Source: an uncultured Gammaproteobacteria bacterium (GTDB lineage Bacteria; Pseudomonadota; Gammaproteobacteria; Nitrosococcales; Methylophagaceae). Taken from it: 32,020 bases of DNA. Position numbers and translations under genes: made by a program. The DNA is taken from the NCBI GenBank assembly GCA_937900515.1, contig CALCCU010000258.1, positions 1 to 32,020 of the forward strand, written 5' to 3'. Positions 6,794 through 29,893 of this stretch are shown here, piece by piece. The stretch's first letter is position 1. Every line of letters starts with the position of its first letter. Under the pieces are notes generated by a model. It was given only the letters and a program-made list of their open reading frames with translations, searched no databases and was not told the DNA's origin.

Positions 6794-6821
6794 CTAAGCT
6801 TGCTTGACTACCCGCTTAGTT
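6792..6821 (+). terminator. Possible weak hairpin terminator after gltD
   Basis: AACTAAGC (6792-6799) and GCTTAGTT (6814-6821) are perfect complements around a 14-base loop, starting inside the gltD stop codon. There is no T-run after it, so it is at best a weak or Rho-assisted stop between gltD and hemE. Confidence 0.35.
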
Positions 6822-6934
6822 GATCTACATCAGCTAACTATAAGGCTTCATGATGTCGGAAAGTATTTTCGAGTATTATGGAGCCTTATTTATATCTGTA
6901 CTATTTGTGTATTTTATTTGTGAGGATGTTGTAC

Positions 6935-24205: not shown

Positions 24206-24877
24206 GTGGAAGACTTACAAACATCCGAAGCATGGCGGGTTTTTCGTATTCAATCAGAACTGATTGATGGCATTGAAACGCTCAATAATATTGGCCCAGC
24301 TGTGTCGATCTTCGGCAGCGCGCGCCTTTCTGAGTCATCCCCTTACTATCGTGATGCCATTACCGTTGCCTCAAATATATCTAAAGCTAATTTATCGGTT
24401 ATTAGTGGTGGAGGCCCCGGCATAATGGGAGCAGCCAATAAAGGCGCATTCAAATATAAAGGTCAATCTATCGGATTAAATATCGCACTTCCTCAAGAGC
24501 AAGTACCCAATCCAGATCAAGATATTAACCTTACTTTTCGCTACTTCTTTGTTCGGAAATTAATGTTTGTAAAATACTCTATGGGCTATGTCGTTTTTCC
24601 TGGAGGTTTTGGTACCTTAGATGAATTTTTTGAATCTCTCACATTGATTCAAACCCATAAAATTCGCCAGTTCCCTGTTATTTTATATGGCTCGTCGTAC
24701 TGGCAAGGTTTGATTAATTGGTTAAAAGATCAAGCACTGACACTTGGTTGTATTGATAAAGAAGACTTATCACTATTTCATCTTGTTGATACACCGGCAG
24801 AAGTGCAATCCATCATCGAGCACTATCACAAACACTTAAAAGAACACCCTCAAGATGAGAATCGCCTGACCGTATGA
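24206..24877 (+). CDS. LOG family protein (nucleotide 5'-monophosphate phosphoribohydrolase-like)
   Basis: A 223-residue Rossmann-fold protein of the TIGR00730/LOG family. The two diagnostic motifs are present: SGGGPGIMGAANKGA and PGGFGTLDEFFE. Characterised members hydrolyse the N-glycosidic bond of nucleoside monophosphates (cytokinin-activating LOG in plants; purine/pyrimidine nucleotide hydrolases in bacteria). The old label lysine decarboxylase is wrong for this family. The GTG start at 24206 has AGAGG seven bases upstream. hemN follows 91 bases later on the same strand. The physiological substrate cannot be assigned. Confidence 0.88.
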   Translation: MEDLQTSEAWRVFRIQSELIDGIETLNNIGPAVSIFGSARLSESSPYYRDAITVASNISKANLSVISGGGPGIMGAANKGAFKYKGQSIGLNIALPQEQVPNPDQDINLTFRYFFVRKLMFVKYSMGYVVFPGGFGTLDEFFESLTLIQTHKIRQFPVILYGSSYWQGLINWLKDQALTLGCIDKEDLSLFHLVDTPAEVQSIIEHYHKHLKEHPQDENRLTV

Positions 24878-24968
24878 TCTATATCAACAAATATAGATTT
24901 AATATTAAGCTAAGGTCTAAGCTCGTTATAATGGCGTAATAAACCACCCGCTTTTCAGGAATACTATT

Positions 24969-26351
24969 TTGGAACAATCAGTTACTTTTGATCTTGATCT
25001 TATAAAACGCTATGACAAAGCGGGGCCTCGTTATACTTCTTACCCTACAGCGGTCGAATTTAACGAGAACTTTAACGCTAAGCATTATAAAGAGCAGATA
25101 ACACTATCTAACCAGCGTGGTGGCCCGCTTTCACTTTATTTCCACATCCCCTTTTGTGATACGGTCTGTTTCTACTGCGCCTGCAATAAAATCATCACAA
25201 AAAATCGTAAACATGCCGAACCGTATCTAGCTAACCTACATAAAGAAATCGCATTACAAGCGGCTCTTTTTGGATCCGATCGTGTGGTAGAGCAATTACA
25301 CTGGGGTGGCGGCACACCAACGTTTATCAGTCACGATCAGATGCGTGAATTAATGGCGGTCACGCGCGAACACTTCAACTTAGCAGATGATGATAACGGC
25401 GAATTTTCAATTGAAATCGATCCTCGTGAAGCGAGTGCTGAAACAATTAAGGTGCTACGTGAAATCGGCTTCAACCGCATAAGCTTAGGTGTGCAGGACT
25501 TTAATCCTAAAGTCCAAAAAGCAGTGAATCGAATTCAGTCTGAAGAAGAAACTTTTGCCGTTATTGATGCAGCTAGAGCATCAGGATTCCGGTCTGTGAG
25601 TCTTGATTTGATCTATGGCTTACCTCATCAAACACCTGATAGTTTTGCAGAAACATTAGACAAAGTTATTGCTGTTAACCCTGATCGCCTATCTGTTTTC
25701 AACTATGCTCATATGCCTGAACGCTTCAAAGTTCAACGCCAAATGAATAGTGAAGACATGCCCAAGCCAGAGATTAAACTTGAAATCCTACAGCGTTCAA
25801 TTGAACAGCTTACTGCTGCTGGCTATGTGTATATAGGTATGGATCACTTTGCCAAACCAGAAGATGAACTGGCTATTGCACAACGAGAAAATAAACTTTA
25901 TAGAAACTTTCAAGGTTACTCAACTCACTCAGAGTGTGACTTGATTGGCTTAGGCGTTACATCAATAGGCAGTGTGGGAAATTCCTACTCACAAAATCAA
26001 CGTACATTGGAAGACTACAATAACTGCCTAGATAACAATGAACTACCTGTTTTCCGAGGCTTTGAACTTAATGATGATGACAAAATCCGTCGCGTAGTTA
26101 TCACTCGACTTATTTGTCACTTCTCTTTAGATATTAAAGCCGTTGAACAAGAGCTTAATATTAACTTCAAAGAATACTTTACTGATGCCTACCCACAATT
26201 AGAACAGTTTGCTAGTGATGGCTTACTCTCTTTTAATGATAATGAAATTAGTGTTCTGCCTGCAGGGCATCTATTGATTAGAAATATCTGTATGGCATTT
26301 GATTTTTATATTCAACAGAAAACTAATCAGCACTTTTCAAAGGTTATTTAA
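24969..26351 (+). CDS. hemN: Oxygen-independent coproporphyrinogen III oxidase
   Basis: HemN is the radical-SAM enzyme that makes protoporphyrinogen IX without oxygen. The 4Fe-4S ligands are C63, C67 and C70 (HIPFCDTVCFYCAC), followed by a fourth cysteine C72, all as in E. coli HemN (C62, C66, C69, C71). LHWGGGTPT, SIEIDPRE, GVQDFNPKVQKAVNR and YIGMDHFAKPEDELA are also conserved, and the C-terminus has the HemN-specific domain (LIRNICMAFD). Length is 460 aa (E. coli 457). The start is TTG at 24969 with AGGA eight bases upstream, a rare codon suggesting modest translation. With hemF elsewhere in the window the cell can make haem with or without oxygen. A run of nine C bases begins 3 bases after the stop. 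Confidence 0.95.
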   Translation: MEQSVTFDLDLIKRYDKAGPRYTSYPTAVEFNENFNAKHYKEQITLSNQRGGPLSLYFHIPFCDTVCFYCACNKIITKNRKHAEPYLANLHKEIALQAALFGSDRVVEQLHWGGGTPTFISHDQMRELMAVTREHFNLADDDNGEFSIEIDPREASAETIKVLREIGFNRISLGVQDFNPKVQKAVNRIQSEEETFAVIDAARASGFRSVSLDLIYGLPHQTPDSFAETLDKVIAVNPDRLSVFNYAHMPERFKVQRQMNSEDMPKPEIKLEILQRSIEQLTAAGYVYIGMDHFAKPEDELAIAQRENKLYRNFQGYSTHSECDLIGLGVTSIGSVGNSYSQNQRTLEDYNNCLDNNELPVFRGFELNDDDKIRRVVITRLICHFSLDIKAVEQELNINFKEYFTDAYPQLEQFASDGLLSFNDNEISVLPAGHLLIRNICMAFDFYIQQKTNQHFSKVI

Positions 26352-26364
26352 TACCCCCCCCCTC

Positions 26365-26407
26365 TTAGCTCTGTTCTCAATTCCCAACAATGAGAACTGA
26401 GCTCTAA
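26365..26407 (+). terminator. Imperfect hairpin after hemN
   Basis: The left arm (26365-26379, ...GTTCTCA) and right arm (26391-26407, TGAGAAC...) pair over 7 bp at the tip, then CTC/GAG after a mismatch, then TTAG/CTAA after a 2-base bulge. It lies 14 bases after the hemN stop and is followed by weakly T-rich sequence, so it is a likely but not classical terminator. Confidence 0.5.
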
Positions 26408-26439
26408 AATATACCTATTTTAAGTAGATAGACCCTACA

Positions 26440-26478
26440 TTGATCCAGATCATTGTTTTAAAAACCTAACCCTATAGA
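26440..26478 (+). promoter_or_regulatory. FNR/ANR-type promoter
   Basis: TTGAT-CCAG-ATCAT (26440-26453) matches the FNR consensus TTGAT-N4-ATCAA at 9 of 10 positions. A -10-like TATAGA (26473-26478, within TATAGACTAT) lies 19 bases beyond it. A start near 26485-26488 would put the site centre (26446.5) close to -40, the usual class II activating position. It would drive rightward transcription toward the small ORF and the GGDEF-EAL gene, making this an inferred low-oxygen promoter. Confidence 0.6.
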
Positions 26479-26594
26479 CTATGCGCCCAGTATGATTGGT
26501 CACTAATATAATGTTACCAGTCGAATTACGCGTATCAATGTAATAACGCTAGCATAATTTGGACATGCTTCTTACACATTCACAAGAGGTATTT

Positions 26595-26648
26595 ATGCAA
26601 ATTATCCCTATCAGCTCAGTGTTAGCAAAACAGCTTAAACAACATTAA
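26595..26648 (+). CDS. Possible 17-residue peptide ORF
   Basis: The frame ATG...TAA encodes MQIIPISSVLAKQLKQH. It is preceded by AAGAGG (26584-26589) five bases before the ATG, the best ribosome binding site in this spacer, and lies about 110 bases after the predicted FNR-type transcription start. It could be a leader peptide, a small protein or chance. The sequence has an amphipathic look (hydrophobic first half, basic second half). I know no homologue. Confidence 0.3.
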   Translation: MQIIPISSVLAKQLKQH

Positions 26649-26797
26649 CTTACCTACTTTAAGCGTAGTCTCTCTCGCTATTTTCTGATTAATACCAAGC
26701 AAAAGTATTTCATGTACTTGAGCAGACCATTAGCAAATTGTAATCAACACTGATTCGAGAATAAAGCCACGATGCCACTAATCGATAAAATGAAATA

Positions 26798-29700
26798 ATG
26801 GAAAAACCTACTTTTTCTAATCCATACTACCGCACAGCAATTGCGATCAGTTTGAGCTATGCCTTGTTTGCATCATTATGGGTTCTACTCTCAGATCAAT
26901 TATTACTTTCAATGATTGATGACCCAAAATTACTGACACTAATACAATCATTGAAAGGTGCACTGTTTGTCATTATTAGTGGCATTTTTCTTTATGGTCT
27001 ACTCCATAAAGCAATAGATAAGCTGCGACATTCCGAAAATAGTTATCTAAAGATATTTGACTCTACTATAGAGGCTTTTTTTATTCATGATCGTCATACA
27101 GGTCAAATTGTGGCAGTCAATCAGGCTGCAATTAATATGTTTGGCTACAGTAAAGTAGAAGCAAAACAGTTAACCATCAATAACCTTCAACTCGACGTTT
27201 TAGCGAGCGATATTGAATTTTCACCTCAGCCTAATAATGCATCCCCAGCCCCATTTTTCCGACAAAGTAAGAAGAAAAATGGTGATACGTTTTGGGTCGA
27301 AGTATCAACTCAACATTTAGATATTAAAGGCAAGCATCTCAATATGACCACCGTAAGAGATATTACCTTTCGAAAACAAACAGATGATATATTACGCGCC
27401 TTAGCAGAATCAGCCACGCTAGTAGATAATGAAATCTACCAAACCATCGTCCATCAGATAGCCTCTTCTCTAGATATTAGGTATGTATTATTAGCTGTTA
27501 TTAGCCCTCACGATTCAACTAAACTGGAAACAATAGTAGCTTGGGACACAGACAGGTTCATTGAAAAAATTCAATATAAAATTATCAATTCACCGTGTGC
27601 TAACGTTATAAAAGACGGAATGTGCTGGTACCCAGATAAGTTAGCGCAACTATTTCCAAAAGATCAGTTTATTACTGATTTAAACCTATGTAGCTATCTC
27701 GGCGTACCATTAAAAAATAGCAACAATGACGTTCTAGGTGTCATGTGTTTAATCGATGATAAACCGATGAAAAATAACCAAGCTATTGATTTAATCAATA
27801 GCTTGGCCGTAAGAGCAAGTATTGAACTTGAACGGCAAGAGTCCAATGAGAAACATAAACTATCATCTCGCGTATTTACTGATTCACATGAAGGGATAGT
27901 GATTACCGATACACAAGGTAATATTATCGATGTAAACCCCACTTTTTGTTCCGTGACGGGTTACAGCCATGATGAAGTCATAGGTAAGACTCCCCAATTA
28001 TTACGTTCAGGAAAGCATGATCAGAATTTTTATAATGACATGTGGACTAAACTGAATAAAGACGGTCATTGGCAAGGTGAAATCTCAAACCGGAAAAAAA
28101 ATGGCGAGCTTTATATAGAACTACTGAAAATTTCATCGTTAAAAAATAAGTCAGGTGAAATCATAAATTATGTAGGTATATTCACTGACATCACTCAAAG
28201 TAAAGAACAACAACGTCAATTAGAGCTCATGGCTCATTATGATGTACTTACTAAATTGCCAAATCGCATCTTATTCGCCGATCGATTCAAGCAAGCTAGT
28301 GCAAATAGTCGACGAACTGACACCTTATTGGCTGTTTGCTTCCTCGACCTAGATAATTTTAAACCGGTTAATGACACATATGGGCATACTACTGGTGATA
28401 AATTATTGATTGAAGTAGCAAAGCGTATTAAAGCAACTATTCGCGAAGAAGATACTGTATCTCGACAGGGCGGCGATGAATTTGCCATTCTACTTGTTAA
28501 TCTAGCCTCACCTTTTGAGAGCGATCAACTGCTGAGTCGAGTTCACCAAAGCCTAGCACAACCTTATTATATAGATAGCCATGTCATCTCCATCAGTGCT
28601 TCAATGGGTATTACGCTTTACCCTGTCGATGACAAAGACTTAGATATCTTGCTACGCCATGCAGATCAGGCTATGTATCAAGCAAAACTAAAGGGTCGAA
28701 ATAATTACGAGTATTTTAATATCGAAGACGATCAAAAAACGCTTAATAATCATCTTCGTTTACAAAAGGTTGCCTTCGCCTTAGATAATCAACAACTTTG
28801 CCTGTATTACCAACCGAAGCTCAATATGCGTACAGGCAAAATTGTAGGTGCAGAAGCACTAATTCGTTGGAATCACCCTGAACATGGACTTATTCCGCCA
28901 ATGGAATTTTTACCTATCATTGAAGGTACGAATCTAGAAATTAAGGTTGGTAACTGGGTTATCGAACAAGCCGTTAAACAAATAGGGCAATGGCAGGACC
29001 AAGGAATCAACTTAGAAATAAGTGTTAATATTTCTTCACAGCACCTATTAAATATCAATTTCCATGATGAATTAGACTCTATTTTCAATAAGCACCCTAA
29101 TGTAGACCAAAAATTATTACAATTAGAAATTCTTGAAACCAGCGTTCTTAGTGATCTAGAGCTAATCAACCAAACACTCCAAGACTGCCAAAACCGCTTC
29201 AATATAAGTTTTGCTTTAGATGATTTTGGTACCGGTTATTCATCCTTAACCCATTTGCGTAACTTGCCCGTTAATACTCTTAAAATTGATCAATCCTTCG
29301 TTCGAGATATGCTAATTGATCCTAATGATTATGCCATCATTGATGGTGTTATTGGTTTAACTCAGAGCTTTGATCTTGAGCTAATCGCTGAAGGAGTAGA
29401 AACAACAGAGCATGGCTTAATTCTGCTTATGATGGGCTGCGACTTGGCCCAAGGTTACGGTATAGCGAAACCTATGCCCACCAGCAAGTTTGACGAGTGG
29501 TTAAACAACTATACTCCGAATCCCATCTGGCAAAACCATGCGAATGAAGCGCTCGATATAAAACAAAAGCATCTTAAACTATTAAAAATGACGCTTACAA
29601 AATGGTTGGAAAAATTCAACGATAATATTTTAAGCACTACGAGCGCACAAGATTGGCCTATCCTCGATCCAACAAAATGTCATTGCAACTCATGGATAAA

Positions 29701-29893
29701 AAAAGAAAAACAAGGGCAAATATTCAATTTAGCATGGTTAAGTGAACTTGAAGGGTTACATGAAAAATTGCATAACACTGCTAATGAGATATACCACACC
29801 TATCAACAAGGTAATCAAAAGCAGGCTAAGTTAGAACTGACTCGATTAGATGACATTGTAGTTCAAATTAATGATGTATTACTTTTATCATAA
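26798..29893 (+). CDS. PAS-GAF-PAS diguanylate cyclase/phosphodiesterase with C-terminal CZB domain
   Basis: A 1031-residue inner-membrane c-di-GMP protein. Two membrane helices (about 14-35 and 50-70) are followed by PAS (about 80-195), GAF (about 205-345), PAS (about 355-470), GGDEF, EAL and a C-terminal helical region. GGDEF is intact at 558-562 with the inhibitory I-site RxxD at 549-552. EAL is intact at 686-688, with DDFGTGYSS (808-816) and AEGVET, so both synthesis and breakdown of c-di-GMP are possible. The tail (about 915-1028) resembles a chemoreceptor zinc-binding (CZB) domain, with candidate ligands H925, C961 or C963, H988 and H992, and CNSW near C963. The ATG at 26798 has no clear ribosome binding site and overlaps the stop of a 9-codon upstream frame (TAATG). 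Confidence 0.9.
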   Translation: MEKPTFSNPYYRTAIAISLSYALFASLWVLLSDQLLLSMIDDPKLLTLIQSLKGALFVIISGIFLYGLLHKAIDKLRHSENSYLKIFDSTIEAFFIHDRHTGQIVAVNQAAINMFGYSKVEAKQLTINNLQLDVLASDIEFSPQPNNASPAPFFRQSKKKNGDTFWVEVSTQHLDIKGKHLNMTTVRDITFRKQTDDILRALAESATLVDNEIYQTIVHQIASSLDIRYVLLAVISPHDSTKLETIVAWDTDRFIEKIQYKIINSPCANVIKDGMCWYPDKLAQLFPKDQFITDLNLCSYLGVPLKNSNNDVLGVMCLIDDKPMKNNQAIDLINSLAVRASIELERQESNEKHKLSSRVFTDSHEGIVITDTQGNIIDVNPTFCSVTGYSHDEVIGKTPQLLRSGKHDQNFYNDMWTKLNKDGHWQGEISNRKKNGELYIELLKISSLKNKSGEIINYVGIFTDITQSKEQQRQLELMAHYDVLTKLPNRILFADRFKQASANSRRTDTLLAVCFLDLDNFKPVNDTYGHTTGDKLLIEVAKRIKATIREEDTVSRQGGDEFAILLVNLASPFESDQLLSRVHQSLAQPYYIDSHVISISASMGITLYPVDDKDLDILLRHADQAMYQAKLKGRNNYEYFNIEDDQKTLNNHLRLQKVAFALDNQQLCLYYQPKLNMRTGKIVGAEALIRWNHPEHGLIPPMEFLPIIEGTNLEIKVGNWVIEQAVKQIGQWQDQGINLEISVNISSQHLLNINFHDELDSIFNKHPNVDQKLLQLEILETSVLSDLELINQTLQDCQNRFNISFALDDFGTGYSSLTHLRNLPVNTLKIDQSFVRDMLIDPNDYAIIDGVIGLTQSFDLELIAEGVETTEHGLILLMMGCDLAQGYGIAKPMPTSKFDEWLNNYTPNPIWQNHANEALDIKQKHLKLLKMTLTKWLEKFNDNILSTTSAQDWPILDPTKCHCNSWIKKEKQGQIFNLAWLSELEGLHEKLHNTANEIYHTYQQGNQKQAKLELTRLDDIVVQINDVLLLS

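Follow-up and report, generated by a model that had tools for sequence, protein, structure and literature searches.

The window (the whole stretch of DNA analyzed here, 32,020 nt) carries hemN, encoding an oxygen-independent coproporphyrinogen III oxidase, and, 446 nt further on, a gene for a large GGDEF-EAL protein, which is followed in turn by a ClC-family gene. The spacer between hemN and the GGDEF-EAL gene holds a strong hairpin, a putative binding site for the oxygen regulator FNR, several candidate -10 hexamers, and a 17-codon open reading frame (ORF) (Table 1).

Table 1. Features of the hemN to GGDEF-EAL region; positions are those of the window, and gaps are counted from the 26440 site to the hexamer.
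Feature	Position	Strand	Score or support
FNR site of hemN (positive control)	24874..24887		18.3 bits
hemN, oxygen-independent coproporphyrinogen III oxidase	24969..26351	+	TIGR00538, 646.5 bits
Strong hairpin 3' of hemN	26367..26403	+	No T run
Putative FNR binding site, TTGATCCAGATCAT	26440..26453		9/10 to consensus; 19.2 bits
Candidate class II -10, TAGACT, gap 21 bases	26475..26480	+	4/6
Alternative -10, TATGAT, gap 37 bases	26491..26496	+	5/6
Alternative -10, TATAAT, gap 53 bases (class I-like distance)	26507..26512	+	6/6
17-codon ORF, MQIIPISSVLAKQLKQH + stop	26595..26648	+	Shine-Dalgarno (SD) GAGGT
GAF-PAS-GGDEF-EAL protein, 1031 aa, CZB-like C-terminus	26798..29893	+	Pfam; GGDEF and EAL motifs

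The motifs of the enzyme that we take to be catalytic, namely RQGGDEF preceded by RxxD, together with EAL, DDFG, KIDQ, and AEGVE, fit an intact, predicted bifunctional GGDEF-EAL c-di-GMP enzyme, and 2 hydrophobic stretches were recognized by eye. Behind the GGDEF-EAL part, at 29600-29791, lies a CZB-like zinc-binding domain, whose Pfam match of 26.4 bits is below the curated cut-off of 29.4 and whose Cys was found by eye in 22 of 24 aligned relatives. The first 350 residues of the enzyme matched in 20 of the 29 genomes of the genus, at no more than 47% identity outside its own genome. Among the matches listed, the only near full-length one outside its own genome (53% over residues 8-1028) came from another genus of the family (G033), where the relative stands behind a chemoreceptor-like gene without an FNR site. 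The enzyme has no clear ortholog in its genus.

The sequence at 26345-26440, which includes the hairpin behind hemN, folds with -19.6 kcal/mol (z -6.3), and none of 200 shuffles equaled this value. The hairpin lacks a T run and is therefore not called a terminator; it probably marks the end of the hemN transcript, which makes a separate promoter for the enzyme gene reasonable. Gene order was compared at the hemN loci of 29 relatives, 3 of which have less than 700 nt of sequence 3' of hemN and one of which has none. No relative of the enzyme follows hemN at these loci (ORFs of at least 90 codons, up to 1.5 kb 3'), and the ClC-family gene lies 6-138 nt behind hemN in 5 of them. Since this gene comes after the enzyme gene in the window, it looks as if the enzyme gene was inserted between hemN and the ClC-family gene, or was lost in the other genomes. 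In one genome (G015), a protein with 53% identity to the enzyme over residues 91-912 is encoded on the strand opposite to hemN, at a distance of about 1.8 kb, and no 8/10 FNR site occurs in the 450 bases upstream of its first start codon; this inverted neighbor counts against a simple species-specific reading. The spacer DNA itself matched only its own genome among the 29 of the genus and none of the 28 others.

The probable FNR site and its counterparts in relatives

The consensus for FNR binding is TTGATNNNNATCAA, and the spacer sequence TTGATCCAGATCAT agrees with it at 9 of 10 positions, as the first-pass annotation had stated. We dropped this plain match as evidence for the site, because such matches are common: with at most 1 mismatch, the window has 5 against 2.8 expected (10 of 100 shuffles have as many), and the whole genome has 429 against 175 for the reversed pattern, a rough control whose base words differ. 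Many of the 429 are therefore due to chance. As the plain-consensus score is not striking, we built a family-specific matrix from the sites found upstream of hemN in 18 members of the family, accepted if they fitted at least 8 of 10 positions and lay between -110 and -60, with the window's own hemN site excluded. The 26440 site has the top matrix score in the window, ahead of the hemN site. With bases taken as independent, the 446-nt spacer would be expected to contain about 9e-5 matches this good; this estimate was used instead of a 2-Mb order-3 Markov sequence, in which 0 matches were as good. By this score, the sequence at 26440-26453 is very probably a genuine FNR site.

The gene for the regulator is present in the same genome, split across contigs C68 and C188, with an identical overlap of 35 residues. 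The C68 piece contains C-x2-C-x5-C, and the C188 piece a later Cys and the helix VETVSR; by their positions in Escherichia coli FNR, we take these to be the cluster cysteines and the recognition helix. Judged by its sequence, then, the genome encodes a canonical FNR with 4 cluster cysteines and an FNR-type helix, the C188 piece alone scoring 214.2 bits with the NCBIfam Fnr model, below its cut-off of 228. An FNR piece from this genome matched in 27 of the 29 genus genomes; 23 relatives are 68-90% identical, and the remaining matches are weak.

Sites equivalent to that of hemN in the window were found upstream of hemN in 18 of 21 relatives, a count that drops the own locus and 8 relatives of less than 65% identity, 5 of which have a site of at least 8/10 at -110 to -60. 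When the hemN-built matrix was applied outside its training set, to the OmpW-type gene behind fnr, 18 of 23 relatives had an upstream site of at least 15 bits, and none of the 23 had a best site below 13.0 bits. Sixteen of these 23 sites end in ATCAT, the same as the 26440 site, and the own genome has a 20.9-bit site between fnr and the OmpW-type gene. The OmpW family was assigned by Pfam in the 2 cases tested (own genome and L122) and by eye from the first residues in the others; the counts leave out L146, a match of less than 60% identity, and the own partial piece L147.

Strong matches to the matrix are rare at other loci of relatives. No site of at least 15 bits occurs in the 29 loci with GGDEF relatives (149 kb), 7 of which have no DNA before the open frame, and the best upstream site among them scores 13.6 bits, 209 bases before the first start codon of the relative in G009 (L010). 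Likewise, the 24 hemE loci of relatives (97 kb) contain no site of at least 15 bits. The window has a 15.2-bit FNR-like site upstream of its hemE, at 6820-6833, which has a counterpart of at least 12 bits in none of the 24 relatives; 2 loci (L163 and L164) have a weaker site of 9.1 bits at almost the same distance. Good-looking FNR sites can thus be species-specific.

Promoter candidates and the 17-codon ORF

From the end of the 26440 site it is 344 nt to the enzyme's start codon and 141 nt to the ATG of the 17-codon ORF, compared with 59-87 nt from site to start codon for hemN in the family. It had been proposed that the site stands at the class II distance from a plausible -10, and the hexamers give a mixed answer: TAGACT lies at the 21-base gap found in the ompW promoters of relatives, but matches at 4 of 6 positions, and better hexamers are placed at the less usual gaps of 37 and 53 bases, so that the start is uncertain, at about 26485-26520. 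TATAAT is the sole perfect hexamer in the 344-nt stretch 3' of the site, and a hexamer as good as TAGACT is present in about 9% of the 3-position slots of the spacer. A consensus promoter scan of 26300-26900 returned no promoter made of these -10 elements and 4 promoter-like sites against 2.5 expected. A class II promoter at the 26440 site is, on these hexamers, a plausible but weak prediction.

The promoters of relatives provide a frame for these distances. By eye, a -10 of at least 4/6 stands exactly 21 bases from the site in 20 of the 23 ompW promoters, and a 21st (L128) has the same gap when counted from the second copy of its site. The arrangement of an FNR site and a TATGAT-like -10 at a 21-base gap, between fnr and the OmpW-type gene, recurs in the genus (L120-L142). 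Upstream of hemN (L050-L070 and L079), the site takes 2 distances from the -10, with a gap of 22 bases in 5 of 18 promoters and 39-40 bases in 13 of 18, another hexamer tying in 2 of them; the pattern is suggestive of a switch from one class of control to the other, class II or class I, within the family.

Of the 14 start codons scanned between the site and the enzyme gene, the ATG of the 17-codon ORF alone has an SD, 4 bases upstream of it; the same scan found none at the start of the GGDEF-EAL gene. The first-pass annotation was thus correct in assigning this ORF the best ribosome binding site of the spacer and in placing the enzyme start (26798) 149 bases past the ORF stop (26648). Among 3000 shuffles, an ATG ORF with such an SD arose in 1.2% (17-60 codons) or 2.3% (10-60 codons), and 5.1% contained a comparable ORF with an SD when GTG and TTG starts were included. 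The window as a background yields, per 344 nt, about 0.11 ATG ORFs in the 10-60 codon range that are preceded by an SD of this kind on the plus strand (the 17-codon ORF included) and about 0.05 on the minus strand. The ORF does not exceed chance by a convincing margin. Its first eight residues, searched as an exact motif, occur in 1 of 57 family genomes, its own, and in none of the 56 others, and none of the 28 other genus genomes matched the spacer in which the frame could be compared between species.

The suggested small peptide or structured leader was not supported: no conserved frame was found in the genomes searched, no Rfam match was obtained at gathering score or E<=1, the fold has a z of -1.6 with 6 of 100 shuffles as good, and 26300-26900 contains no terminator-like site. 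A leader-peptide attenuator was rejected for lack of such a site and in view of the z of the fold. We regard the 17-codon ORF as probably incidental and not a gene. A separate, 8-codon ORF, MPLIDKMK (26772-26798), runs into the GGDEF-EAL gene: its stop and the start codon of the enzyme overlap in the sequence TAATG, which could couple translation of the two.

Probable oxygen-dependent control of the c-di-GMP enzyme

The proposal that FNR controls the GGDEF-EAL gene in response to oxygen is well supported at the level of sequence, by the score of the site, the FNR gene, and the sites of relatives, and FNR acting at the 26440 site probably controls the c-di-GMP enzyme. We give a probability of roughly two-thirds to the reading that the site at 26440-26453 activates a downstream promoter at low oxygen and that the transcript reaches the GGDEF-EAL gene, the 17-codon ORF being incidental. 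The sequence itself shows a site of marked rarity, a canonical FNR gene, recurrent hemN and ompW sites in relatives, and the domains of the enzyme; the hairpin between hemN and the site, TAGACT at the gap of the relatives' ompW promoters, and the precedent of E. coli yfgF also speak for this reading. Against it count the long distance from the site to the enzyme's start codon, a spacer that no relative shares, the lack of sites of at least 15 bits at the 29 GGDEF loci, the nonconserved hemE site, and a weak -10 at the class II gap, where the consensus scan calls no promoter. FNR, a [4Fe-4S] oxygen sensor, would bind the site when oxygen is scarce and activate a promoter just 3' of it; the transcript would start at about 26485-26520 and run as a single mRNA, with a leader of about 280-310 nt, into the gene at 26798. 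Low oxygen would then increase the amount of a single c-di-GMP enzyme and also that of HemN, by way of the separate FNR site of hemN; the direction of the change in c-di-GMP is inferred.

The main competitors differ in what they make of the site. It may be a chance or relict match, or act on a target other than the enzyme gene, as the abundance of plain-consensus sites in the genome and the nonconserved hemE site would allow; we hold this to be unlikely, since a match with such a family-specific score would hardly arise by chance within the spacer. The enzyme gene may instead be transcribed chiefly from the hemN promoter, whose widely shared FNR site would then provide the oxygen control, the 26440 site contributing little. 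The ClC-family gene behind hemN in 5 of the 29 relatives suggests that a hemN transcript may at one time have extended further downstream, but the long spacer and the strong hairpin directly behind hemN stand against this rival, which seems distinctly improbable.

Two further possibilities give the 17-codon ORF a function. That it is translated and relevant, either in the form of a small protein or by tuning the downstream gene under FNR as a leader peptide, is favored by its ATG, its good SD at good spacing next to an enzyme start without SD, and a distance of 141 nt from the site that is closer to the usual one than that of the enzyme start; against it stand the shuffle and background frequencies given above, the absence of the motif from the 56 other family genomes and of the spacer from the 28 other genus genomes, and the missing terminator-like site, and we consider it very unlikely. 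Slimmer still is the chance that the 17-residue peptide of an FNR-driven leader, translated from its strong SD under oxygen limitation, determines how much of the following GGDEF-EAL-CZB gene, which lacks an SD, is translated; if that were true, a single mRNA would tie a small peptide and c-di-GMP to oxygen sensing.

Comparison with known systems

No description of a peptide between an FNR site and a GGDEF-EAL gene was found in the titles and abstract beginnings of the open-access papers listed. The claim that the arrangement as a whole is undescribed fails for its core: E. coli yfgF encodes a GGDEF-EAL phosphodiesterase and is activated by FNR at a class II promoter, whose box lies at -41.5 and whose -10 is TAGAAT (PMC3718329). 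The likeness extends to the order of an FNR box before the gene of a membrane GGDEF-EAL protein, and to TAGAAT there and TAGACT here at a comparable distance. The input domain of YfgF is MASE1 and its GGDEF motif is degenerate (PMC3718329), whereas the protein of the window has 2 hydrophobic stretches, PAS, GAF, and a CZB-like domain, and an intact GGDEF motif; the leader here is long, with a predicted start.

Two other systems touch on parts of the locus. E. coli ompW is a member of the FNR regulon (PMC4886647), and an FNR site also precedes an OmpW-type gene in the own genome and its relatives, with 21 bases between site and -10; the 26440 site has another target gene, and the distance from site to start codon is much shorter at ompW. 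EAL-containing diguanylate cyclases are one group described among CZB-containing c-di-GMP proteins (PMC8262984), and the enzyme resembles these proteins in joining CZB to GGDEF and EAL, with a CZB match here that is below the Pfam cut-off. At its core, the finding adds another example to a known kind: the control logic is already known from E. coli yfgF, and the locus allows low-oxygen control of a c-di-GMP enzyme to be tested in this lineage.
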